Source of the DNA: Prolixibacteraceae bacterium
GTDB taxonomy: Bacteria > Bacteroidota > Bacteroidia > Bacteroidales > Prolixibacteraceae
Length of the DNA stretch: 41,914 nt
Reading direction: 5' to 3'
Assembly: GCA_017998095.1 (NCBI GenBank)
Contig: JAGODU010000017.1
Span: 1 to 41,914, forward strand
Every line of letters starts with the position of its first letter. The stretch's first letter is position 1. The translations under genes were made by a program, and so were the position numbers. The notes beneath the pieces are model-generated. The model worked only from the letters and a program-made list of their open reading frames with translations. It did not search any database and was not told the DNA's origin. Below are positions 12,275 through 41,900 of the stretch, one piece after another.

Positions 12275-12865
12275 TTACTGTTTTTTTAAAATGGAATTGA
12301 ATTTAACCTGAATATTTTTGGAAATGCTAATTGCATTAGGCTTTACGTTTAATGACGAAGGCAGTTTTTCTTTAAGTATCTGTTCGATTTTCTTTGGATC
12401 AAGGCTTTCTATTGGAATAGCAAATTCAGATTTGCCTGTTATTGTGCCATCACTTCCTATGGTCAGACTACCATTTATGTCAGTGCTTGTCTGTTCATCC
12501 CATACATAGAAAGTTCCGGAGAATTTAACGTTATATGTTCCCGGTTTATTAAAGTTAACCTTACTCATGTCGGATATCCTTCCGTCAAAAGTTATTTTAG
12601 GATAATCAGTTACGTCAATATCTCTTGCACTCATCATCCTGTTCATTGCCCCAATCCTGTACTCAAAAGATTTTATAAGGGCAATTATTTTAAACTGTCC
12701 GGTTGAAGTGTTCAGCTGAGATGCTACCTGATAATTATCAGCAACTATATTTTGGACGTTATTTAGGGACATCACGTTGATGTGGGCAGTGCGGGTAATA
12801 TAATTCTGAGAAAAAGAATTCAGGAAAGCAACTGCCAGTAGGGTAATGATAAATAATTTTTTCAT
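12275..12865 (-). CDS. YceI-like secreted protein
   Basis: A 196-residue exported protein. I chose the start at 12865 (MKKLFIITLLAVAFLNSFSQ), which gives a clean signal peptide; an upstream in-frame ATG at 12901 only adds a charged 12-residue tail. The mature part resembles the YceI lipocalin-like fold (SARDIDVTDYPKITFDGRI, then PGTYNVKFSGTFYV), a family that binds polyisoprenoid-type lipids in some members. It sits between a lipoprotein gene and an OB-fold membrane protein gene. The ligand is unknown. Confidence 0.8.
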   Translation of the reverse strand: MKKLFIITLLAVAFLNSFSQNYITRTAHINVMSLNNVQNIVADNYQVASQLNTSTGQFKIIALIKSFEYRIGAMNRMMSARDIDVTDYPKITFDGRISDMSKVNFNKPGTYNVKFSGTFYVWDEQTSTDINGSLTIGSDGTITGKSEFAIPIESLDPKKIEQILKEKLPSSLNVKPNAISISKNIQVKFNSILKKQ

Positions 12866-12907
12866 TTGTGTTTTTGTAAATGGCGAAAGTACCTTTTTCA
12901 ATTTAAA

Positions 12908-13444
12908 TTAAAAATAACTATAATTCAATTCTTTAACTTTGCCTCTATAATATCCGTTTATGCTGTCGCCCAGATTTGTTTTGCATTTGATAACGAATTC
13001 ATAGTCAGAGCCAATCTTATCAACTGATATTTCCCCTGAATCAATGACAACGGAGCCTGAATATACTTTTGTGTCATTTTTATAATTAGAGTTATAATAC
13101 GAGTAGGGGAAGTAATCCAGCAGATATTTACCATCGTCAAATGAGCCATTCCATTTATCATTGATAAAAGTTAATGAATTCATGCCATTAAGATTAATAT
13201 CTGAGGCAATGAATATTCCCGAATCTGTCTTTTCAAATTCTGCGCTTTTATCAGTAAAAGTAAGGTTAATAGCCCTGTCATTGAAGTTCTCATCAAAATT
13301 GTAAATTGACTTTCCACACGACTTGATTTCATGCTTCTGGCCTTTGTACATAAAGTAATTATTCGATGAGGGGTTATCATTTTCATCATCCTTGGTACAG
13401 GAAATCAAAAAGATAAGCAATAATAAAGTTAATAAGTATTTCAT
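12908..13444 (-). CDS. Hypothetical lipoprotein
   Basis: A 178-residue protein starting at 13444 (MKYLLTLLLLIFLISC). The lipobox LISC puts the lipidated cysteine at residue 16, followed by an acidic spacer (TKDDENDN). The rest is a beta-rich domain full of Asn, Asp, Ser and Tyr with no catalytic motif that I recognise. An in-frame start at 13471 would add nine residues in front of the leader and is unlikely. It is the first gene of a three-gene minus-strand operon. A possible promoter is TATCTTTA at 13458-13465 (minus strand) with ATTG 20 bases further upstream. Confidence 0.75.
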   Translation of the reverse strand: MKYLLTLLLLIFLISCTKDDENDNPSSNNYFMYKGQKHEIKSCGKSIYNFDENFNDRAINLTFTDKSAEFEKTDSGIFIASDINLNGMNSLTFINDKWNGSFDDGKYLLDYFPYSYYNSNYKNDTKVYSGSVVIDSGEISVDKIGSDYEFVIKCKTNLGDSINGYYRGKVKELNYSYF

Positions 13445-13690
13445 ATTGTTTTTTGAATAAAGATATAACAATGGGGAAGATGGTGCAATATATAATGAAA
13501 TTATACAAAGGGATACAATACGCTTTAAGGAATTTTAAATTATCGGGGAAGGTTTTAAACTCTTTTCAGGAAAAGTTTTTTAAAAATTGTGGAAAATTAA
13601 TGGGTCAAGCAAGGATGTTAAAAGGCCATCCTTTCTGAAGTTGAAAGTTATTTAATGGAAATAGATTGAAATGGATTAAAATTTTTTCTG

Positions 13691-13722
13691 ATTGGATATT
13701 CAAAAATATATAATTAAATTTG
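13691..13722 (+). promoter_or_regulatory. Bacteroidota-type promoter for the nuclease gene
   Basis: TAAATTTG at 13715-13722 matches the -7 consensus TAnnTTTG exactly. ATTG at 13691-13694 lies 20 bases upstream in the -33 position. The predicted transcript start near 13727 would give a leader of about 45 bases. The -7 box lies inside the left arm of the inverted repeat at 13707-13755. Confidence 0.5.
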
Positions 13723-13755
13723 ATTGATTTAATTAACAATCAAACTAATTATATA
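13707..13755. promoter_or_regulatory. Large inverted repeat overlapping the nuclease promoter
   Basis: tatataatta (13707-13716) plus tttgattg (13719-13726) pairs with caatcaaa (13737-13744) plus taattatata (13746-13755). The only break is a 2:1 mismatch, and the loop is 10 bases. It ends 16 bases before the start codon and covers the -7 box and probable transcript start. An autoregulatory operator or a leader hairpin are both possible. Confidence 0.6.
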
Positions 13756-13771
13756 TAAAAAATCCTTCGCT

Positions 13772-14842
13772 ATGGAATTTAAAGAGCAAATTAAGCAGTT
13801 AGGTGACAAGGTTTTAACACTTAAAGATCAAATAAATACAGAAGAAGCAACAAAGAGTGCTTTTATTATGCCTTTTATTCAAATTTTAGGATATGATTTA
13901 TTCAATCCAATAGAAGTTGTTCCTGAGTTTGTTACAGATTTTGGTGCTAAGAATATCGAAAAAGTTGATTATGCTATATTTAAAGACAAAGAGCCAATAA
14001 TGATTATTGAGTGTAAACATCATTTGGAAAATCTTGATAAACATTATACTCAAATCCATAAGTATTTTCATTTGACAAAGTGCAGATTTGCTGTTCTTAC
14101 TAATGGTATTCAATATAACTTTTACACAGATCTTGATTTGGCTAATAAAATGGATGAAAAACCATTCCTGAGTTTTGATATTTCAACTATCAAGGATCAG
14201 CAAGTTAAAGAATTGGCAAAGTTTCATAAAAGTGGATTTGATGTTAATTCTATACTCACAACTGCAAGTGAACTAAAATATACTAGTGCAATAAAAGCTG
14301 TTTTATCAAATGAGTTAACTAATCCTTCACCAGAATTTGTTAAATATTTCATTAGTAGAGTATATGAAGGCAGAGCGACAGAAAAAATATTAATACAGTT
14401 TACTGATTTAGTAAAAAAGACTATTGATCAGACTTTTCACGATATAGTAAATGACAGATTGATGAAAGCAATAAATCAGACAAAACAACAATCAGAGGAA
14501 GTTAAAAAAGATGAAGTAGTACAGTCTGACGAAGAAGATAATAAGATTATTACAACAGTTGATGAATTAAATGCATACTATATTGTTAAAAGTATTTTAA
14601 GGACAAGAATTGATGTATCTCACATAACAAACAGAGATTTCGTAAATTTCATGAGTATATTGTTTGATGATTCAATTCAGAAGCCAATTTGCAAACTATA
14701 TCTTAATTCTAGCAAGAAAAAATATATTGGTATTGTAGATTTAAATAAGAAAGAGACCAAATATGAAATTTCGATTCTTGATGATATATATAAGTATTCT
14801 TCTGAACTTCTTTCTATTATAGATTTATACGATAAGAAATGA
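13772..14842 (+). CDS. Solitary HsdR_N-like restriction-type nuclease protein
   Basis: A 356-residue protein with an N-terminal nuclease-type domain like that of type I restriction subunits (HSDR_N_2 / COG4748 type). After a coiled N-terminal helix, VDYAIF gives Asp66 and IIECKHH gives Glu80 and Lys82, the PD-(D/E)XK core. LTNGIQYNFYTD follows as is usual in the family. A charged linker (about 228-255, rich in Q, E, K, D) leads to a C-terminal alpha/beta domain. There is no helicase motor, methylase or specificity subunit nearby. It is AT-rich compared with the flanking sugar genes. It might be an orphan defence nuclease; no partner is visible. Confidence 0.75.
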   Translation: MEFKEQIKQLGDKVLTLKDQINTEEATKSAFIMPFIQILGYDLFNPIEVVPEFVTDFGAKNIEKVDYAIFKDKEPIMIIECKHHLENLDKHYTQIHKYFHLTKCRFAVLTNGIQYNFYTDLDLANKMDEKPFLSFDISTIKDQQVKELAKFHKSGFDVNSILTTASELKYTSAIKAVLSNELTNPSPEFVKYFISRVYEGRATEKILIQFTDLVKKTIDQTFHDIVNDRLMKAINQTKQQSEEVKKDEVVQSDEEDNKIITTVDELNAYYIVKSILRTRIDVSHITNRDFVNFMSILFDDSIQKPICKLYLNSSKKKYIGIVDLNKKETKYEISILDDIYKYSSELLSIIDLYDKK

Positions 14843-16847: not shown

Positions 16848-18524
16848 CTATTCCCATCCCGGATTTTGTTTCAAGTTAGGATTTATTGAAAGAACTGTTT
16901 CAGGATAAGGATAGTATTCATGTTTTCCTGCCTGAAATCCAACTTGTTTATCAGCGTTAGGCTCATGGTAAATGACATATCCTCTGTGTAAAGGTTCTCC
17001 ATCGTTGATCGCATCTTTAAGAAATGGAATATGTTTTCCGGCGGTCTTTGCTTTTTCAAATTCACCCCAACGTTTCATATCTATCCAGCGTGCATTTTCT
17101 GCCCACAATTCATAGTTTCTTTCTTTTTTAACAGCATCCAAAGTCAAAGCAGAGCTTATATTTTTAGATCCTGCACGTTGCTGAACCATCTGAAGATACT
17201 GAAGACCATCGTTATCGCCAGTCTGCGCGCAAGCTTCGGCATATAAAAGAAGGACGTCAGCATATCTTGCAATAATAAAGTTGTTGAATCTGTACCAGTT
17301 TGTTGTACGGTCTTCAGGAGAAACAATATGTTTTTTCTGAAGGTATCCGCACATCCCGTAAAGGCCACCAGGATCTTTGATTCCTCTTTTTTTGTCAGCG
17401 AGTTTCTCTTCTCTTGTCATATTTTCAGTATCGCTGCCCCATTCAAGTTCAGTGAGGAACTCATCATAAGAAACCATAGTTGCTTTACGACGATAAGAAT
17501 CACCATCATTAGCTACAAATTCATTCGCAAAGTTTTCTTCAATACCTAAGCCACCCCATCCCTGGTCGGCCTGGCATAATGGAGAACTGGCAAGTTTAGA
17601 TGTTCTCCATCCCCAAAGATTCATTTCCATCCAGGTAGAACGTTGGATTTTTCCACCCCAGTCACCTATGCTGGCGTTGTTAATGATATTTGACTCAAAT
17701 ATCTTTTCTTCGCAACCGTCACCGCCAATGTGAAATAAGTCTGCAAAGCGTTCTCCCGGAACGAGAGCATATTTTCCTGAAGAGATTACATTTTTAAAAG
17801 CTGATTTTGCACCGGCATAATCTCCTACGTAAATAAGTGCCTTTCCTTGAACTGTCCATGCAAAACCCTTTGTAACCTTTACCGCACCATCTTTATCTGT
17901 TGTGCTTTTACGTTCGTCAAGATATGGAACAGCCTCAGCACATTCCTTAGCGCACCATTTGAGTAGTGCGTCATGTCCGCCTTCATAGTTTGTAGGTTTG
18001 TCTGAACCAACAAGAACGTGGTCAATAAGTGGAGGGCAATCCCAGGCCATTGCAGCCATCATGTGTGCCCATGCACGAAGTACTCTTGCTTCAGAAATAC
18101 AACGATCTTTTACTGGGCTTTCTCCGTATTTAAAATTATCGATAACAAGGTTTGTGTGATAAATAACCCAGTAAAAACGTTTGTACATTGTAGTAACTAC
18201 TGAGCTTTGTGCGTCAAAACGATATTCGTTTATGCAACCGAACTGATCGTTATCTCCATAAAATTCTCCTGCTGAAAGTACATTGTCTGCTAAATAGTTA
18301 AAAATGATATTGTAAGGGACATAGATGCCATCATGTCCGCCAATATTTTGAGCAAAATCACCGTATGTATCTACGAGGGCAGACTCAGCGTCTTCGTCAG
18401 TTATATAAAACGCTTCCATGCCAACTACACCCTTCTGAGGAATATCAAGGAGTTCCTCACTACATGCAGTGAATAACATTACTGCGCTAAATAGTAAGGG
18501 CAATATATATTTATATTTTTTCAT
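16848..18524 (-). CDS. SusD/RagB-family outer-membrane glycan-binding lipoprotein
   Basis: A 558-residue surface lipoprotein. The leader ends in the lipobox FTAC (Cys21), followed by SEELLDIPQKG, a typical SusD mature start. The N-terminal TPR-like helices include NEYRFDAQSS and YWVIYHTNLVIDNF (about 90-130). The C-terminal SusD region ends with ARWIDMKRWGEFEKAK and YYPYPETVLSINPNLKQNPGWE. It starts 17 bases after susC and would form the lid of the SusC transporter. Length is normal and the frame intact. The ligand is not evident from sequence; the convergent glycosidase hints at a galactoside. Confidence 0.93.
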   Translation of the reverse strand: MKKYKYILPLLFSAVMLFTACSEELLDIPQKGVVGMEAFYITDEDAESALVDTYGDFAQNIGGHDGIYVPYNIIFNYLADNVLSAGEFYGDNDQFGCINEYRFDAQSSVVTTMYKRFYWVIYHTNLVIDNFKYGESPVKDRCISEARVLRAWAHMMAAMAWDCPPLIDHVLVGSDKPTNYEGGHDALLKWCAKECAEAVPYLDERKSTTDKDGAVKVTKGFAWTVQGKALIYVGDYAGAKSAFKNVISSGKYALVPGERFADLFHIGGDGCEEKIFESNIINNASIGDWGGKIQRSTWMEMNLWGWRTSKLASSPLCQADQGWGGLGIEENFANEFVANDGDSYRRKATMVSYDEFLTELEWGSDTENMTREEKLADKKRGIKDPGGLYGMCGYLQKKHIVSPEDRTTNWYRFNNFIIARYADVLLLYAEACAQTGDNDGLQYLQMVQQRAGSKNISSALTLDAVKKERNYELWAENARWIDMKRWGEFEKAKTAGKHIPFLKDAINDGEPLHRGYVIYHEPNADKQVGFQAGKHEYYPYPETVLSINPNLKQNPGWE

Positions 18525-18541: not shown

Positions 18542-21500
18542 TTAGAATATAATATTAAGACCTAATGTAATCTTCTTTGATTGAGGATATGTACCATTAT
18601 CAAATCCAGCTTGTTGAGGTGAACTGCTAACAGTAGCAGTTTCAGGGTCACATCCCGGATATTGAGTAAAGGTAATGTAATCATCAAGAGATATATAGCA
18701 TCTAAGTTTGCTTATGAGTACTTTACTGGTAATCTCAACAGGAATTGTATATCCTAACTGAATTTGCTTGATTTTAAAGTAAGCTCCGCTAAACATAGAA
18801 GCTGAAGAACCCCAGAATTGCCAATCCTGAGCAATAGACTTAGGGTCAGGCATAGAAGCACCCTTGTTTTCAGGTGTCCAGGCATTGTCATAATAATATC
18901 TGAGTGAGTTACGCATAGGAGTATCAGCACGATATAATACAGTGAAGATATCATTTCCACCTACACCACTACCAAAAATGTTTAAGTCTAATCCCTTATA
19001 AGCCAAGTTGATTGTAACACCATAAGTGTAATCAGGAATTGCTTTACCAATATAAGTCATATCTGCATCAGAAATCTGTTCATCTCCACTGACGTCCTTG
19101 ATTTTAGCTTTTCCTGTTTCAGGATCAACACCTTCATATTGATAACCTCTGAAGAACCAAATAGGTTGTCCAACTTCAAAAGCTGTACGTATAGGATTGT
19201 TTGTACCGCTTACCCCTCCTGTAGCTCCTTCAATACGTGATATTGATGGATCTAGATAAGTAACCTCGTTGTGCAGAGTAGAGAAGTTTGCATTAATTGA
19301 ATAGCTGAAATCTTTGCCTATCATATCTTTCCATGATGCTTCAAATTCGAAACCGGTGTTCAGAACAGAACCTGCATTTACTACAGTACTACCCACACCT
19401 ATTTCAGGTATAGGGGTAATGTCTACAAGAAGGTCTTTTGTATTCTTGTTAAAATAGTCAGCAGAAACTGCTAATCTGTCATTTAAGAATCTCATATCAA
19501 GACCAAAATTTAACTGTTCTGAGGTTTCCCATTTTAGATTTGGATTAGCCAATCCTGAAGGTTTAGAACCGTAAGAAGGAGCCGGGTCATCGACTTTATA
19601 TTGATACCATGAACTGTTGTAAGAAATAGTGGTGCTATATCTGTAATTACTAAGAACATTAATATTACCATTCTGACCCCATGAAGCACGGAATTTTAAG
19701 AAAGAGATGTCACCTTTTTTTACTAAATCAGCGAAGAATTCTTCGTTACTGATTGTCCAGCCTGCTGAGAATGAAGGGAAGTAGCCCCAACGATTTTCAG
19801 CTGATAATTTAGATGCATCAAATGCATCGGCACGGAAATTAGCCTGAATGCTGTATCTCTTATCAAACGAATAGATAAAACGTCCAAAGTATGAAATCTG
19901 TGTAGATTTGCCTGGTGAATTACCAAAACTCTTTACAGTCTTTTCTGATCCGTTTACTACATTACTTTTTACATAGTCGAGATAAAGGAAGTTTGGATCG
20001 TATCCTTTTAAGATATCAGGACCCTGAGCACTGGCAGTTACATTGTCCCAATTATTTTCAATATACGACATACCACCCATTGCTGTAATATCATGTTTAT
20101 CTATTTTGACATTATAATTGGCAAAGTTTTCCCATTGATAGTAGTAGCTGGTATTTGCGCTTGCAGAAATGTTGTAGTCTTCTGTTTTTGCCTGAGAGGT
20201 TGCAAAGTATGGAGTACTATAGCTGTGATTGTTGCTTTGTGCTACCCGGTATCCGAAACGTGAAGAAATAACAAGTCCTTTCACCGGTTTTAAGTTTCCT
20301 TCGATTACACCACGAAGTGAAATACCTTTATTTTCTGAATCTACACGGTCTCTTTGTAACAGCGGGTTACCGCTATCGTCCATAACGTATTTGGAAGTAG
20401 CATAGTATAGATCATTTTCAGGATTTTTCAGGATATTCTTACCTTGATTATAAGCTGTCTTCATTGATTGAGCAAATTCGTCCGGAGATGCATAGTAAAC
20501 CGGAGTCAAAGGGTCGATAGTCATCACGGAGTTCATAAGTGAACCATACTGAGACATTTGAGACACTGATTTCATTCCCCAATTCTCAATCGAGTTGTTA
20601 GTTTTAATTTGAAACCATTCTTTAATATTATAGTCTGCATTAATCTGAGCAGTAAGACGTTTGTAAACGTCCTTCTCGCCTTTAACCATACCATCATTAT
20701 TCACATAGTTAATGGAAGTAAAGAAATGCCCCTGATTATTTCCTCCCTGGAAAGTGATAGCATGTTGTTGACTCCATGAAGGGTCGAATACTTCATCAAA
20801 CCAATCTGTATCAGTACCATCATATCCGTTTGTTTTCAATGCAGCTTCAATTGGAAGGCCTGACATCTTCTTGTATTCAATGAAATCAGCAGCCCTGAAT
20901 ATTTGAGGAGTTTTTGCAAGGCTTTGGTTTACAAAAGTTACATCATAAGCAATACTGGAAGTTCCATTTTTAGAAGCTCCTGTTTTTGTTGTAATCAAAA
21001 TTACACCATTACCTGCAGCTGCACCATAAATAGCAGCAGAAGCTGCATCCTTTAATACTTCAACTGATTGAATCATTGAAGGGTCAAGGTACTGGATATT
21101 GTCTACCTGAAGACCATCAACGATAAGAAGCGACCAATCTTGTCTGAATTTGAAGAGTAACCACGTACACGGATTGAAGCACCTTGTCCCGGAGCACCCG
21201 AATTGGATAGAACCTGAACACCCGGAGCCTTTCCCTGTAAAGCTGCAGCTGCATCAGTTGTAGCAATATTTTCAAGAGCTTCGGCCTTGACTGATGAAAC
21301 TGCACCTGTAAAATCACTCTTCGCCATTGTACCATAACCTACAACAACAATTTCACTCAGGTCAGATGCAGTAGTTTTCATTACTACATTGATGTTGCTG
21401 CGTCCGGCAATGTCAATTACCTGAGTTTCCATTCCGACAAATGAAAAGGACAGTGTACTTTTTGAATTTTGAACTTTAATTGAATAGAGACCATTTGCAT

Positions 21501-21675
21501 CGGTTATTGTCCCTTGAGTAGTTCCCTTTACTACCACGGTTACTCCGGGCATGGAAGAACCATTCTCATCTTTAACTGTTCCATTCACAGTAAGTGCCTG
21601 GGCAAAACTAAAGAACGAGAATAACAGCAATGGCAGCAAGATAATTGCCACCTTTAAAAATCGATGATTTTTCAT
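18542..21675 (-). pseudogene. SusC-type TonB-dependent transporter, split by a frameshift
   Basis: Two overlapping-frame pieces together make one SusC protein of about 1044 residues. The first (from 21675) has a signal peptide, a carboxypeptidase-regulatory-like domain (about 27-110), the TonB-box region SEIVVVGYGT and the plug start up to RVRGYSSNSDK, then leaves frame and stops at 21103-21105. The second resumes in another frame with LLIVDGLQVDNIQYLDPSMIQSVEVLKDAASAAIYG and continues through the beta-barrel to LGLNIIF. Adding one base near 21131 (cg to ccg on the coding strand) restores DKIGPLLIVDG, so a one-base deletion in the plug is the simplest explanation. If real, no transporter is made and SusD is orphaned; a sequence error is equally possible. 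Confidence 0.88.
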
Positions 21676-27877: not shown

Positions 27878-30406
27878 CTATCTTACGGTAGAAAATGTTG
27901 AAATTTCACTATGCTTAATGCCTTTTTGTGAAGTAGCTTCTACTTGTATCACAAAGTCACTTTTTATTTCGCTGGCTTTTATTTTCAACACTACCTTGCC
28001 ATCCTTGTCAACAGGAATATTGTTTTTCCAGAAGAGGGTAGTCTGGTATACCCATACGTTGTGCTTGAAGTTTTCATAGTCAAAAGATTCAATTGAACTA
28101 AACCCCTTTTCAGTTTTGGGTGCTTGAAAATCAGAAACTTCTTTCTTGGTAACTATTTCAATTACACCAACTGAGTTAAGCCCTGTATATTTTTGAATAT
28201 CAACAGGGTTGGTGCTGATATTTATTGACTTAACATCGAAAGGAGATAATGCATTAAGAACATTTATGTCAGTTCCCATCTTTTGGCCATCAATAACAAT
28301 CAATGCACCAGATTGAAAGTTAAAAGAGTTGTTGGAACCATAAAAGACAATTTGGTTACTTTCGATTCTAAAGGGCTTGGTCATCTTTATTACCTCAAGA
28401 ACTGAATTGCCGGATTGCAATAACTTTTCTGTACCAGAAGGGCCTGAAATTTTATTATCTCTGTTTTCTGTTCCTATCAATTTAAGCAGGTCTTTGTTAT
28501 TCTGATAGTATGATAAAATTTCTTCTTTATCGAACAAAGGGTGATTCTTTAACGATTCAAACATAAGCAGTTCATCCAGCGATTCATTGAAAGTGCGGTT
28601 TAACTGAACATTATAGCTTTTCTTTCCTGAATTGCTGAAAGCTTTCACAATAATATCATTGGACTTAGGAAGTCGTTCAAAACTAAACCTGCCTTTATCA
28701 TCAGTCGTTGTCGTGGCTAAAGTATGATTATTTGCCTGAACTGCCATTACTGTTGCACCTTCAACAGGTTGATGATTCCTGCCGGTAACGATTCCGCTAA
28801 ATGCTCTGTCTGTCTCTGGTTTGTAGTAATCTTTTCCTGAAAGCAATTCCTGAATGGAATAATGCTTATAACCATTTGCAATCAGTTCAAGGTTAGTTAG
28901 ATAAATGTCCAGGACAGTTTTAGGCACTGGAGTATATAAAGGATATTTCAGGAATGATTGTTGTGTATTTACTACAATGCTGTAAAGGTTAAACTTATCA
29001 ACCACTTTCACATCAACTGAAGAAGGACCAAACTTTGAGGTGAAATTACTCATATCTATTGTGATATCAACATCTCCGTTAGTGGCGGAGGGTTTTAAAT
29101 GAGTTTCAATATCAAAATTTAAATCTTCGTTGGGCGTGTTATATACCAGTCTTTCGGAAAGCAGAGTTCCTTCCTTTGAAAAAATTAAGAAGTCAACAAT
29201 ACCGGAAGGCAATTCACGGGTGGAAATCTTAAGATTATATTTCTTGTCGCCCGGAATCTGATAAGCCATTTTTATTTCTCCGCCTGTAACTGCAGCAAGA
29301 GTAAGCTCTTCTCCAACATATTTTCCACTGGTAAAAATTGAAACCCTTAATGTAGAATCTTCAGTTTTGAGAAGTGAAAAAACAGAACCGTCAATTAATG
29401 CTTCAGGCAATTCAAACTCCTGATCTTTACCATATTCATCTTCTACTTTAAAGAAATACTTCTGTCCGGGCAATGGCATAATATTGATAAGCCCGTAACC
29501 TTTCTTCATTATCTTGCCGTAACCAACCTGATTATTAAACTGATCATATACTTTGCCGGAAATCTCAACAGGCTCGTTTAGTGGATTTGTTGCCCTGTAA
29601 AGTATTCTCTGTAACTGATTTGTGAGCAGTGTGCCACCTTCCGGGAAAAATTCAACTTTAATCTTGTCCTCAATAGTGAAGATTGGAATTTTCTGGGTCG
29701 CATTATCATTTCCCTGAATTGAAATGTCAATAAAAAGGCCATTGTTTATTTTTTCCGGCAGCTTAAATTTTACTTCGCTAATCTCATTTACCGGAAGAAT
29801 AAATTTTTGGGATAATACCTTTTGATTAAAGTCGAATAAAGAAATAATTACCTTTTCCTTTTTATTTCCCGGGGATATTGAATTTATAATTAGGTTTAAT
29901 CTAATTTCTTCTCCCGGCTTATAAATTTTATTTGAGATATCAGTTTTAAGCAGATAATCGCTTTTTTTATAGGAATTGAGAGTTAAAGGCTTAATAGCAG
30001 CAAGCGATGCATCATTTGTTTTAAGGGCTTTTGGTGTATAAGCAACAATAAATGCATTTCCTTGTTTTGCCCATGAAGGTATAGTAATCTGGTTGTCACA
30101 TACGCCATTAATTATTAAGTACTTATTGTCAAATATTACTTCTCCGGATTCAGCTTTAAGCATAACTATAAGTTCAGTCTCATCGGAGTATATTTCAGAC
30201 AGACAGTTAAATACTTCAGCCTTGAACCATATTTTTTCACCGGGGCTATAAATATCTTTATCCGTTTTAATAAAGACCTTGTTCTTGGGGAAATCAGTTT
30301 TGCCTTTATTCAGTATCTCAGACATCTTTATCAATGACGGATTAGAGTTCTGTGCTGCTGTAAAAAAAGCTGAAGCAATTATAATTATTGAAAGTATATA
30401 TTTCAT
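27878..30406 (-). CDS. Large exported protein with MG2, regulatory-like and TonB-plug-like domains
   Basis: An 842-residue exported protein with a signal peptide (FFTAAQ, residue 19). VFIKTDKDIYSPGEKIWFKA (about 44-63) is a macroglobulin MG2-type domain, and further beta domains include FFPEGGTLL near 253. A carboxypeptidase-regulatory-like domain lies near residues 533-590 (GIVTGRNHQPVEGATVMA, then TDDKGRFSFERLP). Near 690-760, GALIVIDGQK, SPFDVKSINIS and GVIEIVTKK match a TonB plug, but no beta-barrel follows: only about 80 residues remain. It is the last gene of the sigma/anti-sigma operon, 13 bases after the preceding gene. Homologues are common in Bacteroidota; function unknown. Confidence 0.8.
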   Translation of the reverse strand: MKYILSIIIIASAFFTAAQNSNPSLIKMSEILNKGKTDFPKNKVFIKTDKDIYSPGEKIWFKAEVFNCLSEIYSDETELIVMLKAESGEVIFDNKYLIINGVCDNQITIPSWAKQGNAFIVAYTPKALKTNDASLAAIKPLTLNSYKKSDYLLKTDISNKIYKPGEEIRLNLIINSISPGNKKEKVIISLFDFNQKVLSQKFILPVNEISEVKFKLPEKINNGLFIDISIQGNDNATQKIPIFTIEDKIKVEFFPEGGTLLTNQLQRILYRATNPLNEPVEISGKVYDQFNNQVGYGKIMKKGYGLINIMPLPGQKYFFKVEDEYGKDQEFELPEALIDGSVFSLLKTEDSTLRVSIFTSGKYVGEELTLAAVTGGEIKMAYQIPGDKKYNLKISTRELPSGIVDFLIFSKEGTLLSERLVYNTPNEDLNFDIETHLKPSATNGDVDITIDMSNFTSKFGPSSVDVKVVDKFNLYSIVVNTQQSFLKYPLYTPVPKTVLDIYLTNLELIANGYKHYSIQELLSGKDYYKPETDRAFSGIVTGRNHQPVEGATVMAVQANNHTLATTTTDDKGRFSFERLPKSNDIIVKAFSNSGKKSYNVQLNRTFNESLDELLMFESLKNHPLFDKEEILSYYQNNKDLLKLIGTENRDNKISGPSGTEKLLQSGNSVLEVIKMTKPFRIESNQIVFYGSNNSFNFQSGALIVIDGQKMGTDINVLNALSPFDVKSINISTNPVDIQKYTGLNSVGVIEIVTKKEVSDFQAPKTEKGFSSIESFDYENFKHNVWVYQTTLFWKNNIPVDKDGKVVLKIKASEIKSDFVIQVEATSQKGIKHSEISTFSTVR

Positions 30407-30419
30407 GGCTAAATATCTT

Positions 30420-31958
30420 TTATTGCTTGTTAGTAATAATCATATCGTGGTTCTCAAAGTTTTTGATTGCATGTTCCAGTTCTTCTTCCGGTTCAATAAT
30501 GTTGTAATTTTCCCAAAAACCTTGATCATAAGTGACAATCTTCTCAGTGAAAAACTCACTGGGCTTAAATATTTCATTCCTGCTGAATCTTTGAAAATCT
30601 CCCTTTTCAATATCTGTTATCAGAATTTCAGAGGTACTGTTGAATTTGGTTTTTTGTTTTTTTTCTCTGTTGATTAGTTTAATCTGCATAGAGCTTTGAG
30701 CACTCAGTAAATACCACTTCCCTTCAAAAAGACCATATTGAACGGTATAGGCAAGTTCAGAAGGAATAGCTTTAAATTCCTTAGGTTCCTTCTCGATCAT
30801 CATCCTACGGGCTTCTTTAAGCCCTTGTTTGGTGTAATTGAATTCAACCCTTGAGAGTGCCCATGTTTCTATATCGAAATAAAGAACTCCTTCATAAAGG
30901 ATATCCCTGAGGTTGTAAATCGGACTGAAGGAAATAACAACAGATGGTCTTCCTGCAATTAGAGTTCTTCTTTCGTAATTATAAACATATAAATGGCTGA
31001 ATTCTTTGTTGATAAAGCTTTCTTCATTCTTAACAACATCCAGCTTTGTTATATAATATGGGCCTCCCTTTAGTCGGAATTTAATGTCATCATAGGGTTG
31101 AACATCAGAACTCTTCCTCCCTTTTACAAACTTGACGAGATCGTCCCTGAATCCATTGTTGTAAGGGGCTTTAAGGATGTGGAGAACTGCTTCGGATACA
31201 TCGGTATAGTTTGAATTTTCTTTAATGGTTTCCCGATAGAAAGAGGTCAGCAAAGTGTAGTCTTTTTCATAGTTGTTGTAAATCTTTTCAAAAAATCTGT
31301 CAAGTACTTCTTTAGGATCGTAGTAAACTACATTAACTGACGAAAGATTGTACACCGTTTTATCTAAAACAATATTTAAAGCACTGTCTCCTATATTTTT
31401 AATTGGGATATCGTATGGTATGTACCCAATGCATGAAAAACGAAGTGTGTCGTTGAAATAATCGTTAGATATTTTAACAGAAAAATTCCCGTCAAGATTA
31501 GATATTGTTCCTTTACCCTTTCCTAATATTAAAATATTGCAGAAGGGTATAGATTCTTCTTTTTTAACATCACTGACATGCCCCCTTATTGTTTTAAATA
31601 CCGGCTCTTGTTCAGTTTCTTTTTTTTCAATCTTCAGTGGATATAATATTATCTGGTTATCGAGAGCATGGAAACCTAATTTCTCCTGATCAATGATGTC
31701 GATAATGATAGAAAATATTGTTGCATTAACATACTGAGGTTTAATGAGTTTATCTGCTTCAAGAAGAATCGGGTTGTAAGAGAAATATACATTAGCAACT
31801 GAGCTTATTGAATCCAAAAGCTCAGCTTTAGTAATAGAATCAGACTCAATTGTAATGGCGAAATCCAGTTTATTACTATCAGATTGTCCTTTTGCTACAA
31901 TGAAGAAGAGCAAAAGGGCAATGATTATATGGACACTGAATAGTTTCATGGATACCAT
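30420..31958 (-). CDS. STN plus carboxypeptidase-regulatory-like domain protein
   Basis: A 512-residue exported protein. After the leader (MKLFSVHIIIALLLFFIVAK; the ATG at 31949 is as good as 31958) comes an STN domain (about 32-108: LLDSISSVANVYFSYNP). A carboxypeptidase-regulatory-like beta domain follows (about 122-205: IRGHVSDVKKEESIPFCNIL...LDGNFSVKI). The remaining 300 residues (LLTSFYRETIKEN, then beta-rich sequence) form a domain frequent in Bacteroidota envelope proteins. There is no TonB-dependent barrel. Being encoded with ECF sigma and FecR, it may carry the STN that touches the anti-sigma factor. Confidence 0.8.
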   Translation of the reverse strand: MVSMKLFSVHIIIALLLFFIVAKGQSDSNKLDFAITIESDSITKAELLDSISSVANVYFSYNPILLEADKLIKPQYVNATIFSIIIDIIDQEKLGFHALDNQIILYPLKIEKKETEQEPVFKTIRGHVSDVKKEESIPFCNILILGKGKGTISNLDGNFSVKISNDYFNDTLRFSCIGYIPYDIPIKNIGDSALNIVLDKTVYNLSSVNVVYYDPKEVLDRFFEKIYNNYEKDYTLLTSFYRETIKENSNYTDVSEAVLHILKAPYNNGFRDDLVKFVKGRKSSDVQPYDDIKFRLKGGPYYITKLDVVKNEESFINKEFSHLYVYNYERRTLIAGRPSVVISFSPIYNLRDILYEGVLYFDIETWALSRVEFNYTKQGLKEARRMMIEKEPKEFKAIPSELAYTVQYGLFEGKWYLLSAQSSMQIKLINREKKQKTKFNSTSEILITDIEKGDFQRFSRNEIFKPSEFFTEKIVTYDQGFWENYNIIEPEEELEHAIKNFENHDMIITNKQ

Positions 31959-31972
31959 TTAATATCCCAAAG

Positions 31973-33535
31973 CTAAAAAATCTCTTTCAGATAAAAGCTT
32001 GATTTGAATTCTTTCCCGTTTCTCAATACTGTCATATTTATCTTTTTATTTTGCTGTTGTTTGAGAGTTAAATTGATGTCATTAAGAGTCAGGTCTTTAT
32101 GGTTGTTGTAATTTATGCTTATTAATTGATCACTTTGCCTGAATCCCGCATCCCATGCCGGTGAGTTTTCAATTACATTTTCAATTGTGAAAACCGGAAT
32201 TCCCGGAACCGGGTTAATGATTTCCAAACCACTCATGTTGTAATAGAATTTATCTTTGAAATCACTGTTTGGTCTCAGGATTAATCTCTTATTGAAATAA
32301 TCGAAGGTTACTATAAACCTTCTTAGTATTTCTCCTCCTATTGAACCATTTCTGAGTTCAGAATTAATAATGTTGTCGATGTATTCTGATTTTGGATAAG
32401 AAACTATTGGATTATCAAGAGGTTTGCCTCCCAGCCATAATTGCATTAACCTTCCTTTGTGGCCAAACAGGTCTCCTCCTAATCCTACTCCTAGAAAAGA
32501 ATATATATTGTTTGAAGGTATTTTAATCTGATCGCTTGATGCAGGTGAAAGCCAAAGGGCATCACTAGCTCCGGTATCTATAAGGAGAAGAACCGGAACA
32601 ACATCTCCGCTGTCCTGTATAATCTCTGATCTTACGATAGGTTTGTTTCTAACAAAATGCAATGGAAGAACTATATCATTCTTCATAGGATTGTACTCAA
32701 AACGATCGGGTTTATATAGTTTTATTTCTTCTGTTTGGTAATCTACTTTAACTATATAGTTTTTGAATAAATTAAGACCAATAAGTCCATGAACTGGCAT
32801 GCCAAGTATTTGTGATATCTGAAAGTTTTCATCAATTACAACATTTATTTTTTGGTGACTGGCAGTTAAACCGGGCAGAGTTATTGTATTATCACCTGAT
32901 TCATAAGCCTGAGTAACTACTTCATTACCGAGCCCTCTTAGTTCAATTGGTTTCATGTAATTGAGATCCAGTTTTTCTACCAGTGTCAACTCGGTTATTA
33001 TAGGATCTTTAATACCTGAATCAAGTATGAAGTTCATTGTATCGGAGCCGTTAATGCTAACCGGAACAATGATAAGATTACTAATCTGGCGAAATTTAAT
33101 TGACATTGAATTTCGTTTCGCATTATTGAACAGAAATCCTGATGATGGAGTAGAGTAAAGCTTTTTGAAATCAATATGTTCCGACATTGGTACATAATCC
33201 CTGATTACAAGCAGGTTATTTTCTATTTCAAAGATCAGATAATAATCGCTCATCAGTTTTTCAAGTACTTCTTTGACCGACTTGTTTGAAATGCTGAGGT
33301 TTACTCTTTTACCCTTGATTAATTTTGAATTGTAATTAAAATCAAGATTGAACTGAGTACAGATTTTCTTGATTACCTCTTCCAGCGATTCATTTTCAGC
33401 GTATATAGAAATGTTCTGATCTAATACATTGATTTTATTGTCATTGACTTGCCCGAAGGAAACTAACTTCATTAAAATCAACATTAAAAGAACTGCGGAG
33501 GCGATTATCGATTTGAATAAAATTTGTGTTTTCAT
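31973..33535 (-). CDS. STN-domain retropepsin-like aspartyl protease with PDZ domain
   Basis: A 520-residue exported protein: signal peptide to about FGQ (29), an STN domain (about 36-112), then two retropepsin-like halves. The first has FILDSG (Asp172) and GLIGLNLFKNY (250-260); the second has LLIDTGASD (Asp320) and GSIGGEILRRF near 400. A C-terminal PDZ domain (about 440-515, NSPAWDAGFRQSDQLISI) completes it. The first motif is DSG and the second DTG, so both aspartates of an active pair are kept. It follows FecR by 84 bases. It may cleave or regulate an envelope partner; that is inference. Confidence 0.85.
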   Translation of the reverse strand: MKTQILFKSIIASAVLLMLILMKLVSFGQVNDNKINVLDQNISIYAENESLEEVIKKICTQFNLDFNYNSKLIKGKRVNLSISNKSVKEVLEKLMSDYYLIFEIENNLLVIRDYVPMSEHIDFKKLYSTPSSGFLFNNAKRNSMSIKFRQISNLIIVPVSINGSDTMNFILDSGIKDPIITELTLVEKLDLNYMKPIELRGLGNEVVTQAYESGDNTITLPGLTASHQKINVVIDENFQISQILGMPVHGLIGLNLFKNYIVKVDYQTEEIKLYKPDRFEYNPMKNDIVLPLHFVRNKPIVRSEIIQDSGDVVPVLLLIDTGASDALWLSPASSDQIKIPSNNIYSFLGVGLGGDLFGHKGRLMQLWLGGKPLDNPIVSYPKSEYIDNIINSELRNGSIGGEILRRFIVTFDYFNKRLILRPNSDFKDKFYYNMSGLEIINPVPGIPVFTIENVIENSPAWDAGFRQSDQLISINYNNHKDLTLNDINLTLKQQQNKKINMTVLRNGKEFKSSFYLKEIF

Positions 33536-33619
33536 GGCTTAAAATTTTGATTATTTACTTCACGTTGATACTATCCGACTTAAATGAAGTCAGATAAATC
33601 TCAAAATCAACTCCTTAAA

Positions 33620-34618
33620 TTATTTATTATGAATGATATATTTGTTTTCTCCTGCCTTTTCCACTTTTAAGTCAAGAGTCATTGAAACAACATTCAGTAT
33701 GTGGTCAATATTTTGTTTGTTGAATGACGCATTTAACTGATTGCTCATATTAACATTTTCATCAACATCAAAATCAATGTTATAAACCCTGTTTATTGTC
33801 TTTAAAACATCTTCTAGTGATGTGTATTCAAATTTGATTTCATGGGTAAACCAGGAAAGTTCATTTGAATTATAAGTGTTTTCCATTAAAAGATTGCCGG
33901 TTGTCTTATTAAATGTGCCTTTCTGTCCCGGTGTTAAAAGGATTTTATTATCGGCAGTGTTGTTTTTGTTATTCTCTGAAAGTTCTACCTTGCCTGTTTT
34001 AACAACAACTTCAACAGTAGGAGAGTTGTTATAAGCAAACACATTGAATGAAGTTCCAAGTACTTTAACAGATGCTTTTCCTGTGTTTATGATGAAAGGT
34101 TTTTCAGGATCCGGTTTTACATCGAAGAAGGCTTCTCCGGTGAGATTTATTTCTCTGGTTTCTTTGGTGAATTTTTCAGGATAAACAAGCTTTGAGCTGT
34201 GGTTCAAAATTACTTTAGTGCCATCGGGAAGAATTACCTCTTTATCTGAAATATCAGTATTAGTAGTAACTACTTCAGCAAAACTAACTTTTTTATCAAA
34301 ATTAAAACGCAGGGTAGCAATTCCTGTAAGTACTAAAATGGCAATTACTGCAGCTGCTACATTTATCAAACTGCGGTTATTAAGCCTGAATATCTTTTTC
34401 TGATTAATTGCAGGATTTACCTTATCCCATGCCTTATCAGTATCATATTTCTTAAGATTAAAGAAAAGTTCTGTTTTATCCATAACTTGTTCTGAATCAG
34501 AGATAATCTTTTGTAAATCTTCATCTTCTGTCAGCAATTCAAGTTGTTGTTCTTCTTCAATATTCAACTTTTCTTTACTTAGCTTTTTAGCAATAATATT
34601 CCAAAATTCTTCTTTCAT
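33620..34618 (-). CDS. FecR-family anti-sigma factor
   Basis: A 332-residue inner-membrane protein. The cytoplasmic N-terminus (1-80) should bind the sigma factor, and one membrane helix spans about 84-104. A periplasmic FecR domain follows (about 118-215: VILPDGTKVILNHSSKLVYP, INLTGEAFFDV, VLGTSFNV). The C-terminal DUF4974-type domain (about 258-330: FEYTSLEDVLKTINRVYNI) has an STN-like fold and contacts STN partners in known systems. It sits 85 bases after the sigma gene and before two STN proteins. Confidence 0.93.
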   Translation of the reverse strand: MKEEFWNIIAKKLSKEKLNIEEEQQLELLTEDEDLQKIISDSEQVMDKTELFFNLKKYDTDKAWDKVNPAINQKKIFRLNNRSLINVAAAVIAILVLTGIATLRFNFDKKVSFAEVVTTNTDISDKEVILPDGTKVILNHSSKLVYPEKFTKETREINLTGEAFFDVKPDPEKPFIINTGKASVKVLGTSFNVFAYNNSPTVEVVVKTGKVELSENNKNNTADNKILLTPGQKGTFNKTTGNLLMENTYNSNELSWFTHEIKFEYTSLEDVLKTINRVYNIDFDVDENVNMSNQLNASFNKQNIDHILNVVSMTLDLKVEKAGENKYIIHNK

Positions 34619-34703
34619 GTTATTTATATCTCCTGTTTCTTTTATACTTTTTTTATTGCTTTTGTATATTAGACAACCAAAATCAGGCTTACCCTTATAG
34701 ATT

Positions 34704-35273
34704 TTAATTTGCTGTAATTAAAAGTGCTATTATCAGGTTTTTATATTCTTTTAGTTTTTCACGTAATTCTTTTAACGCCTGTCCCATCTGCGTTTCGACA
34801 GTTTTAATTGAGATACCGAGCTGGTCAGCTATCTCACGATATTTAAGCCCCTGATCCCTGCTCATAAGAAATATCTCTCTGCGCCGGTCACTGAGTGACG
34901 CAATACTCGTTTCTATCTTTTTCTCCAGATCTACTTCCATAAAATATCCGGCATATTCAATAGAATTCTCAGGATTTTTCAAAATCTCTGATTGATATTC
35001 CTTAGTTATTTTCTGGTGTTTAATATAGTTAAGACACCGGTTTCGGATTGAGCTGAAAAGGTAATTTTTAACAGACTGATTTATTTCCAGTTCATCTCTT
35101 TTCTCCCATATCTTCAAGAAAAACCCCTGCACTACTTCTTCGCAGTCGTCTTTGTCTTTGATATATCTTCTTGAAAAAACACATAAAGGGGAATAATAAG
35201 TTCTGAAAAGGACTTCGAAACTTTTTTTGTCTCCTTGCCGGATTTTAATAAATAATTCGCGTTCGTCAGTCAT
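34704..35273 (-). CDS. ECF RNA polymerase sigma factor
   Basis: A 189-residue sigma-70 family ECF factor. Region 2 (about 8-75) contains FEVLFRTYYSPLCVFSRRYI and DDCEEVVQGFFLKIW. Region 4 (about 125-175) contains LSDRRREIFLMSRDQGLKYR and the helix-turn-helix IADQLGISIKTVETQMGQAL. It is of the Bacteroidota SusC/FecR-linked type by length and pairing. It is first in a five-gene minus-strand operon with FecR. A 14-bp inverted repeat lies upstream (35281-35337). Its regulon probably includes this operon. Confidence 0.94.
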   Translation of the reverse strand: MTDERELFIKIRQGDKKSFEVLFRTYYSPLCVFSRRYIKDKDDCEEVVQGFFLKIWEKRDELEINQSVKNYLFSSIRNRCLNYIKHQKITKEYQSEILKNPENSIEYAGYFMEVDLEKKIETSIASLSDRRREIFLMSRDQGLKYREIADQLGISIKTVETQMGQALKELREKLKEYKNLIIALLITAN

Positions 35274-39316: not shown

Positions 39317-40120
39317 ATGAGACTGATTATTGAAAATGATTATGCTACAGCTTCACGCTGGGCTGCAAATTATGTTGCCAGGAAAATTAATTCACACAGT
39401 TCAAACCGTCCTATAGTTTTAGGCCTGCCAACAGGTTCATCACCATTAGGCATGTACAAAGAATTGATTTCTCTTAATAAAAAAGGAAAAGTATCATTCA
39501 AGAATGTAGTTACCTTCAATATGGATGAATATATTGGCTTACCAAAAGAACATCCTGAAAGCTACCATTCTTTTATGTGGAATAACTTTTTCAGCCACAT
39601 TGATATCAATCCTGACAATGTTAATATTCTCAACGGCAATGCTTCAGACCTTGAAAAGGAATGCAGTAACTATGAGGATAAGATTAAAAGTTGTGGTGGG
39701 GTAGATCTTTTCATTGGTGGAATCGGACCTGATGGCCATATTGCATTCAATGAGCCGGGCTCTTCTCTTTATTCAAGGACAAGAGTTAAAACCCTTACTC
39801 ATGATACGATTCTTGCTAATTCTCGTTTCTTCGACAATGACCCTTCCAAGGTTCCTACTAAAGCTTTAACTGTTGGAGTGGGTACTGTGATGGATGCAAA
39901 GGAAGTAATGATAATAGTTAACGGCTACAACAAGGCAAGAGCATTACAGCACGCTGTAGAAGAGGGAGTTAATCACATGTGGACTATTAGTTCGTTACAA
40001 ATGCATCCAAAAGGAATAATAGTTTGCGATGAAGTTGCTACCTATGAATTGAAGGTAGGTACATTCCGCTATTTTAAAGACATTGAAAAAGACAATCTGG
40101 ATCCGGATACGTTAATCTAA
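39317..40120 (+). CDS. nagB: Glucosamine-6-phosphate deaminase
   Basis: A 267-residue cytoplasmic enzyme turning glucosamine 6-phosphate into fructose 6-phosphate and ammonia. [13 protein letters not shown] (35-47) is the phosphate loop, FNMDEY gives Asp70, and [17 protein letters not shown] (134-150) gives Asp139, His141 and Glu146, aligning with E. coli Asp72, Asp141, His143 and Glu148. It stands alone with its own promoter, and its 3' end overlaps the convergent rhomboid gene by four bases. Length and motifs match single-domain NagB. Confidence 0.96.
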
Positions 40121-41031
40121 TTTCCCTGATTGTTTTTTTTGTTTCCCATTTTGAAAAGAAATTCTTTTTCACTTTTAGAAAGGCTGTCATAACCTGATTT
40201 TCCTATTTTATCCAGGATTTCATTTATGTTCTGCCTTTCTGCTTTTTTATTCATATTATATTCCCGGTCAGACATATACCTGGTTGCCTTTTTATTGTGG
40301 GAAACTTTTAGTCTGCCCCTTCTTTTAAAAATGTTACTGAAATTGAAAAGGAAGTTATTGAATCGCAGTGTTATGTCTTTGCCCTTTTTAAGTCCAGACA
40401 TATAAACCATCCCCCAGATTGCTCCGCCTATATGAGCAATATTTCCACCCGGATTAACTCCGGTAATACTTACAATATAAATTAAAATTGAAAAGACCGC
40501 AATCCAAATTAGTTTTACAGGTCCAAAAATAGAGCTTATCAAAAGAAGGTTAACAGAAAAATTCGGGGCATAAATTGCTGCAGCAATGAGTATTGCAATT
40601 ATTGAGGCAGAAGCTCCGATAAGGCTGCTTACTTTAGAAATTTCTGCAAAAGCCGGGAAAATATTGAAAGCAAGTATGTATAAAATTCCACCGGCAATAC
40701 CTCCCAGAAAATATAAGCTTAAAAGCTTTCTTTCATCGAAATACATCAGGAATATTTTGCCAAACCAATAGAGACATAGTAAATTAAAAAGTATATGCAG
40801 AAAATCGTAGTGAACAAACATATATGTAAGCAGTGTCCATGGCCGGGTAAATAACAGGGATAAGTCTGAAGGCAATGCCAGCCAGTCAAGAATAGGGAAA
40901 TCAATTTTAAACAAGTAAAATATAACTGAAAGTAATCTTATCAGAATAAAAATAAAAAGGTTGGTATATATCAATCTGGTAATTATTGAGCCAGATTTAA
41001 AAGAAGATTTTATTTCATCCAGAATATTCAT
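40117..41031 (-). CDS. Rhomboid-family intramembrane serine protease
   Basis: A 304-residue integral membrane protein with about six helices between residues 17 and 215. The HxxxN-type start [18 protein letters not shown] (about 74-91) is conserved. GASAS (139-143) gives the catalytic Ser141; the usual GxSG glycine is Ala here. [11 protein letters not shown] gives His200. A soluble tail of about 90 residues follows with a charged helix and a [15 protein letters not shown] end. It lies 65 bases downstream of a second rhomboid gene in the same direction. Confidence 0.88.
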
Positions 41032-41096
41032 GATATTAGTTTTTAATTAAATAGAATTAATAAAGACATAAATAAATTCTAACGGGATAAAATATT

Positions 41097-41900
41097 TCAA
41101 TAAAAGGTTCTGGTATTCTTATTCCAGTATTTTATCAGGATGAATCCAAATAACATACCACCCAGATGGGCAAAGTGAGCAACGTTGCTGCCGGGCATTG
41201 ACAATCCGAGAACAAGTTCCAGAACTCCGTAAGCAATAACCATATATTTAGCCTTGATTGGAATTGGGGGGAACAAGAGCATTAATTGAGTGTTTGGGAA
41301 TAGCATTCCAAATCCGAGTAATACTCCATAAACAGCTCCTGATGCTCCGACAGTTGGAATATTCATTTTGATGTTTACCAATTGATTCATGAAAGACGTG
41401 GCTTCTGTTTCATAAGCTTCAGATGTTGGATTATCGAGCCATGAAGCAGCAAAATCAATTATCTGTGGCAGGTCAAACCTAAGGTCTTTGATGGTTCCCT
41501 GATATTTATTAACGAAAGTTGAAAATAAATCTGCTGAAGGAGTATTGGTAAATGCTGTAACAGCTTTTGCCATAGGGGCTATTTCAAGATAGTTGACAAA
41601 GGTGTGCAGAGCTGCAGCACCTATTCCGGTTACAAAATAAAATATCAGAAATCTTTTCGGACCCCATACGCTTTCAAGTACGCGACCAAACATCCACAAT
41701 GCGAACATGTTGAAAAACAAATGTGTTATTCCTCCATGCATAAACATGTGGGTAATGATTTGGTAAAATCTGAAATTATCTGATTGAGGATAATATAATG
41801 CCAGGCGATCGGTTAAATCTAGTCCTGTTTTCTGCATAACATAAGTAGCAAGAAGCATGATAACATTAATAATTATCAGGTTCTTTGTTATTGGAGGCAT
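41097..41900 (-). CDS. Rhomboid-family intramembrane serine protease
   Basis: A 267-residue membrane protein with six predicted helices. HMFMHGGITHLFFNMFALWMFG (starting at 51) is the conserved first loop and helix, GASG (185-188) gives Ser187, and AHFAHLGGMLFG gives His245. A loop of about 75 residues (105-180), longer than in most bacterial rhomboids, separates the third and fourth helices. The start is taken at 41900 (MPPITKNLI); only 14 bases of the window remain upstream, so a longer N-terminus cannot be excluded. It is probably cotranscribed with the following rhomboid gene. Confidence 0.9.
   Translation of the reverse strand: MPPITKNLIIINVIMLLATYVMQKTGLDLTDRLALYYPQSDNFRFYQIITHMFMHGGITHLFFNMFALWMFGRVLESVWGPKRFLIFYFVTGIGAAALHTFVNYLEIAPMAKAVTAFTNTPSADLFSTFVNKYQGTIKDLRFDLPQIIDFAASWLDNPTSEAYETEATSFMNQLVNIKMNIPTVGASGAVYGVLLGFGMLFPNTQLMLLFPPIPIKAKYMVIAYGVLELVLGLSMPGSNVAHFAHLGGMLFGFILIKYWNKNTRTFY

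Follow-up and report, generated by a model that had tools for sequence, protein, structure and literature searches.

The window analyzed here is a whole stretch of 41,914 nucleotides (contig JAGODU010000017.1, assembly GCA_017998095.1) from a Prolixibacteraceae bacterium, and its minus strand, read from position 35273 down to 27878, carries a sigma/FecR operon of five open reading frames (ORFs); all features below lie on that strand unless stated otherwise. The first gene encodes an extracytoplasmic function (ECF) sigma factor of Bacteroidota type (34704..35273, 189 aa), which scored 183.9 bits against TIGR02985 (cut-off 126.4) and matched Sigma70_r2 and r4_2, and the second a FecR-type anti-sigma factor (33620..34618, 332 aa; PF04773 at 66.5 bits, FecR_C at 45.7 bits). 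These are followed by an STN-aspartic protease-PDZ protein (31973..33535, 520 aa), recognized from domain profiles, alignments and a structural model, by a predicted STN-CarboxypepD_reg-LolA/RseB-like protein, hereafter the fourth protein (30420..31958, 512 aa; CarbopepD_reg_2 at 51.4 bits, alignment A3), and by an MG2-CarboxypepD_reg-plug-like protein (27878..30406, 842 aa; MG2 at 39 bits, CarboxypepD_reg at 39.8 bits). A preliminary description of this DNA had listed five same-strand genes in this order, with STN on the third and fourth proteins, and had noted that a transporter was absent; both observations hold, no transporter belonging to the operon having been found within it, in the window or at 80 related loci. 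The operon is a transporter-free variant of FecI-FecR signaling in which STN domains are carried by a protease and a predicted LolA-like protein.

The STN domain of the protease (approximately residues 38-114; 33194..33424) was delimited with the FecR_C and STN profiles and by profile-profile comparison. FecR_C and STN belong to the same fold group, and the window protein scored 30.0 bits with FecR_C, above the cut-off, and 22.9 bits with Pfam STN, below it; across alignment A2 (28 members including the window) FecR_C was matched in 24/28 and STN in 14/28. The Pfam ranking hinted that the domain came from the C-terminus of FecR itself, an origin that we rejected because profile-profile comparison places it nearer to transporter-type STN (98.8% to the fourth-protein STN, 97.5% to transporter STN, 87.4% to FecR_C). 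It also matched a transporter N-terminal profile directly, over the STN part of that profile (36.7 bits, E 1.5e-11), and these comparisons assign the domain to the transporter signaling type. The two-lobed aspartic protease core (32261..33109) has predicted catalytic residues Asp172 in a DSG motif (33020..33022) and Asp320 in a DTG motif (32576..32578), both invariant in alignment A1 and retained as Asp in 81/83 and 82/83 cases, respectively. Two D-T/S-G motifs within one fold place the protein in clan AA, with predicted activity, and an aspartic core sets it apart from trypsin-like PDZ serine proteases. Its fold is predicted to be pepsin-like (mean predicted local distance difference test [pLDDT] 82.2); since the VIA-align structural list covers residues 138-425 only, the fold of the STN rests on sequence and model. 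The PDZ domain (31982..32230; PDZ_2 at 28.4 bits) has a profile matching the PDZ domains of the zinc metalloprotease AQ_1964, DegQ and CtpB. The closest named relatives of the protease are from Prolixibacteraceae, at 73-74% identity, which makes that family the probable source of the window, and median identity of its relatives to the window protease is 56.5% over the core (L007 and L076 excluded for length).

The fourth protein combines an STN domain (31632..31874) with a predicted LolA-superfamily domain (30570..31322). Pfam STN was found in 14/24 aligned members of this family, the window member on its own giving no match, and profile-profile comparison linked the domain to transporter STN at 99.2%; STN and CarboxypepD_reg together scored 84.8 bits with the N-terminal transporter profile. 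In its model (mean pLDDT 81.9, predicted template modeling score [pTM] 0.54) the C-terminal half has a predicted fold that matches RseB, MucB and LolA.

Upstream, the ECF sigma factor adjoins a FecR-type anti-sigma factor, as in systems of the FecI-FecR-FecA type; being FecR-type, this anti-sigma factor is not of the RseA type. Its C-terminal STN-like domain (FecR_C, PF16344, residues 261-327; 33638..33838) is the expected docking surface, and structures matched by the profile of FecR alignment A4 are 4m0n/4m0h, titled "putative anti-sigma factor", and 6ovk, which is PupR. Four consecutive residues (G188, T189, S190, F191) are invariant across the 23 FecRs of this alignment. FoxR is reported to cleave itself at G191-T192 (PMC11637429), and from this parallel and the conservation Gly188-Thr189 of FecR (34052..34057) may possibly be the equivalent self-cleavage site.

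The linkage of protease and FecR was examined at 80 loci of the genome_contigs collection that code for the protease (a single-sequence scan of that collection had returned no relative). They are labeled mostly Prolixibacteraceae, its genera or Bacteroidota, and otherwise Chitinophaga (L016), Chlorobiota (L066) and Porphyromonadaceae (L048); at L076 a contig end cuts the locus short of the STN. FecR stands directly upstream of the STN-protease on the same strand at 76/80 loci (74/77 where 1.2 kb or more of upstream sequence is available), a sigma factor is present at 74/80 (69/71 with 2.2 kb upstream), and the fourth gene follows the protease at 77/80 (75/76 with 1 kb downstream), at a median gap of -1 nt. 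The MG2 gene is present at only 36/80 (34/66 with 4 kb). The FecR misses are L038, L048 and L069, where the protease stands alone, and the contig-end locus L076. Among 20 loci drawn from the lower-scoring part of 106 matches in the family, which overlap with the 80, FecR adjoins the protease in 19, the miss (L201) lying on the same contig as L069. The protease ORF at L007 (8995-10350; L202 is the same site) is broken ahead of the end of the PDZ domain, and FecR and the fourth gene still adjoin it. At L012 the operon is followed, a few hundred bases on, by a gene for an FtsX/MacB-type permease (12567-13796), and ORFs of similar length occur in that position elsewhere.

Homologous proteases that lack an STN provide the comparison. 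At 55 such loci (29 from a phylum sample, 26 from an order sample) neither FecR nor a sigma factor was found beside the protease in flanks that reach about 1.5 kb at most (0/55), and these loci share no common context, the largest cluster of neighbors covering 8/55. Chance adjacency of protease and FecR was rejected on this contrast, 74/77 against 0/55, and the STN on the protease therefore goes with linkage to FecR. Among the matches listed for the 395 genomes of the phylum sample, STN and an intact core occur together only in the seed; the other core matches begin at query residue 71 or later, and those starting at 71-82 read across stops. In the order sample (393 genomes, three candidates scored per genome) 68 match at 1e-60, and among the matches listed four have the STN, all four belonging to the family list, and the 64 others, which are outside the family, do not span it. 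The two outcomes that the preliminary description had named as counting against its proposal, random adjacency and a transporter normally present in the operon, were thus both absent from the neighborhood search that it had called for.

Six genomes that bear the operon hold 290 FecR matches, 13 to 95 each, and at the five best of the other FecR loci per genome (30 of 290) a plug protein stands directly behind FecR in 30/30, with an STN in 29/30, which sets the transporter-free operon apart from the other FecR loci looked at in these genomes. The STN transporters beside those other FecRs could in principle serve the operon in trans, as in ordinary cell-surface signaling, with a transporter encoded elsewhere contacting FecR and the STN proteins of the operon acting as modulators. 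This we consider quite improbable: a plug profile, of limited reach for receptors other than SusC, detected no same-strand transporter within the operon at any of the 80 loci, and the TonB-dependent receptors that lie convergent behind the operon at L060 (15691-18096) and L071 (15751-18141), which speak for a transporter in trans and were missed by the plug profile, are encoded on the other strand and gave no STN match in Pfam. Weak SusC matches lie behind the operon at L045, L064, L068 and L079, and a same-strand SusC piece lies about 6 kb upstream of sigma at L025. In the window, where genes were identified one by one, none in the operon proved to code for a TonB-dependent transporter; profile scans of 117 ORFs of at least 50 aa detected one FecR and one sigma factor only, and plug matches were confined to both parts of a split SusC-like gene 6 kb off (18542-21675, minus strand). 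Its ORFs lie at 21103-21675 and 18542-21076, with the plug domain interrupted between them, and a SusD gene follows at 16848-18524.

The history of the operon was read from loci with and without the protease in 140 genomes from the family of Draconibacterium orientale (G001). The protease was matched at 1e-100 in 106/140 (104 matches reach the STN and two are contig pieces), one further genome has a contig-end piece, and 33 have no match at 1e-20. The fourth family was matched at 1e-50 in 128/140, 7 of them by an STN-less copy only, and among the matches listed the 33 protease-free genomes divide into 18 with an STN-type fourth gene, 7 with STN-less copies only and 8 with none. FecR stands directly before the fourth gene, with no protease between, at 17 of these 18 protease-free loci, spaced by 19-224 nt and with a sigma factor in 16 (FecR is in two ORFs at L210 and a contig-end piece at L221, and L224 is cut off). 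Outside the family FecR likewise stands directly before the fourth gene, without the protease, in 23 of the 26 order-level loci examined, chosen from 116 genomes with a match among the matches listed, a few candidates being scored per genome; in the other three no FecR was called, L248 lacking one within 1.5 kb and L256, where a FecR tail scored, and L269 lying at contig ends. A tree of the fourth protein, made with a quick method, has 77 rows (30 of the 80 family loci, 4, 17 and 25 others, and the window; L269, which has no STN start, was omitted). In it the protease-free family loci form one clade (Shimodaira-Hasegawa-like approximate likelihood ratio test [SH-aLRT] 97) inside the family, sister to protease-bearing G508-G511, the root and one fork are without resolution, and the order-level rows do not fall on one side of a branch, four being on the wrong side. 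Presence of the protease takes three changes on this tree, two of them forced by starred branches. The simplest history is that sigma, FecR and the STN-CarboxypepD_reg gene are older, that the STN-protease joined near the base of the family, and that one clade lost it.

Because FecR and the fourth gene occur together without the protease, at order level and in one family clade, the fourth gene is the steadier partner of FecR, and the protease looks like an accessory, later addition to an older core. The preliminary description's coupling of FecR to the protease accordingly does not stand as a constant partnership. The same loci bear on the possibility that the STN of the protease pairs with that of the fourth protein, the LolA-like protein being a regulatory subunit or substrate of the protease and the fourth protein alone controlling FecR. 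The two genes are adjacent to the point of a -1 nt median gap, and the fourth-protein STN is the closest relative of the protease STN by profile (98.8%), but the fourth gene keeps its place behind FecR where no protease exists, and L038 and L069 keep the protease without the fourth gene; we regard this pairing as improbable.

Several observations weigh against the mechanism proposed below. The three stand-alone loci L038, L048 and L069 keep an STN-protease with no sigma, FecR or STN-CarboxypepD_reg gene adjacent, and because these proteases show no relaxation or decay of the STN, that domain may have another partner. This is perhaps another FecR of the same genomes, which number 8 in G494, 3 in G918 and 1 in G458; among the matches listed, no STN-CarboxypepD_reg match at 1e-50 occurs in G494 or G458, the genomes of L038 and L069. 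In three FecR-linked proteases (L047, L049, L054) Asn replaces one catalytic Asp, and these are possible pseudo-enzymes that keep docking. In several order-level genomes STN-less copies of the fourth family lie near the STN copy, and a rule that the fourth protein has an STN if and only if FecR is adjacent was dropped as too strong for that reason. One such genome (G892, contig C142, 39894-44301) carries an STN-less CarboxypepD_reg-LolA-like gene, sigma, FecR and an STN-bearing copy on one strand, a layout suggestive of a duplication in which an STN was gained or lost. At the stand-alone L069 the first catalytic motif reads DTD, and an ORF named by eye as RbfA-like follows the protease at L038 and L069.

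Nearly all STN-proteases, moreover, come from one family, so that the linkage is likely one long-kept event and not many. The adjacency might then be inherited baggage of that family with no functional link, a reading to which the lack of independent events lends some weight; order and tight spacing persist at a median core identity as low as 56.5%, however, and FecR and the fourth gene remain 19-224 nt apart in the clade that has no protease, which makes mere inheritance very improbable. Operon genes are typically sigma targets in FecIR-type systems, and the protease could accordingly be an output of the sigma factor, an envelope quality-control protease captured by the operon whose STN holds it near the envelope or other STN proteins. 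The switch exists without the protease and the protease without the switch, and the STN-less homologues have no shared neighborhood, all of which fits an output; output status alone does not explain why FecR adjoins STN-bearing proteases at 76/80 loci and STN-less ones at 0/55, and we consider this reading unlikely, though less so than the other alternatives. Docking of the protease onto FecR by its STN, which the preliminary description had suggested together with proteolysis or envelope state as the putative signal, would be the most economical account of the STN-FecR linkage.

We propose, tentatively and with somewhat less than even confidence, that the operon is a transporter-free sigma/FecR switch sensing envelope state in place of nutrient uptake, in which the LolA/RseB-like STN protein would shield FecR and the STN-PDZ protease would make the site-1 cut. 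Both STN domains would contact FecR_C as FoxA contacts FoxR; the fourth protein would sit on FecR as a shield, a lipid or lipoprotein bound by its LolA-like domain would lift the shield as in RseB/MucB, and the aspartic protease, gated by its PDZ as are DegS and AlgW, would engage that same domain of FecR and cut, shield and blade thus competing at the FecR C-terminus. An RseP-type site-2 protease, found in 9/9 genomes searched, would then free the sigma factor, which would turn on its own operon; in the protease-free clade another protease would have to do the cutting. Published work supplies the components separately: FoxR is kept from being proteolyzed by the signaling domain of FoxA, and its site-1 protease is "still unknown" (PMC11637429), that of E. 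coli FecR is unidentified (PMC8144685), RseB and MucB guard RseA and MucA against the PDZ proteases DegS and AlgW, with lipid A binding countering the guarding (PMC7400510), and STN domains of SusC proteins participate in anti-sigma signaling (PMC7782687).

The proposed scheme is a hybrid of FecI-FecR and RseA-RseB-DegS signaling. More generally, the STN may be a portable docking tag for FecR which, once joined to an aspartic protease with a PDZ domain and to a sensor of LolA/RseB-like type, rebuilt RseA-RseB-DegS around FecR, so that a protease dedicated to the site-1 cut and a guardian responsive to lipid would compete for one site; this generalization we regard as possible, if on the doubtful side. 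The operon supplies a candidate FecR site-1 protease with its own transporter-type STN, encoded beside FecR in 74/77 loci, and the FecR-STN-CarboxypepD_reg pairs of 23/26 order-level loci suggest that envelope proteins can stand in as the STN input and that FecR switches are not all nutrient sensors. A search of one library, by titles and the starts of abstracts, found no description of an STN-protease in a FecR operon.

The remainder of the window adds context. The last gene of the operon contains a plug-like segment (28133..28435) that matches the transporter plug profile (hhalign 96.8%, E 2.2e-10), and the next gene beyond it is deoC, convergent and 4 nt away; a gene for a YgjP-like metallopeptidase lies upstream of sigma on the same strand. 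Two genes of the rhomboid family stand side by side at 40117-41900 (minus strand). Scans for promoters and terminators were uninformative, with 31 promoter-like sites against 33.1 in shuffles and 6 terminator-like sites against 4.1.

Among known systems, sigmaE-RseA-RseB-DegS of E. coli and AlgU-MucA-MucB-AlgW of Pseudomonas resemble the operon on paper, with a PDZ protease and a (here predicted) LolA-superfamily periplasmic protein beside the anti-sigma factor, whereas the operon has a FecR-type anti-sigma factor, an aspartic instead of a trypsin-like protease, and proposed docking by STN. Prc and CtpA of Pseudomonas also carry PDZ domains. Their processing of FoxR is a case of periplasmic proteases acting on a FecR-type anti-sigma factor, but both serve several other processes (PMC11637429), whereas the candidate in the operon is an aspartic protease with its own STN. 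Within Bacteroidota, 9iy9, a putative endopeptidase of Bacteroides fragilis, groups with the STN-less aspartic protease-PDZ proteins, of which all 55 examined loci (the 9iy9 locus being outside this count) had neither FecR nor sigma beside them. SpoIIGA of Bacillus subtilis is described as a processing enzyme by which a sigma factor is activated (PMC13174948). It is an aspartic protease that cleaves pro-sigmaE itself and is not known to involve FecR or to carry an STN or PDZ. In Leptospira interrogans LIC_12757/LIC_12756 pair an ECF sigma factor with a FecR-like regulator where no transporter with an N-terminal signaling extension is known, and the accessible text mentions neither an STN protease nor a LolA-like partner (PMC12155086). 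There is likeness also to FecI-FecR-FecA, FoxI-FoxR-FoxA, PupR-PupB and the SusC-ECF sigma/anti-sigma polysaccharide utilization loci of Bacteroidota, which share with the operon an ECF sigma factor, a FecR with FecR_C and partners with transporter-type STN; unlike these, the operon is one in which no transporter was found and in which the STN is carried instead by a protease and a barrel-less CarboxypepD_reg-LolA-like protein.

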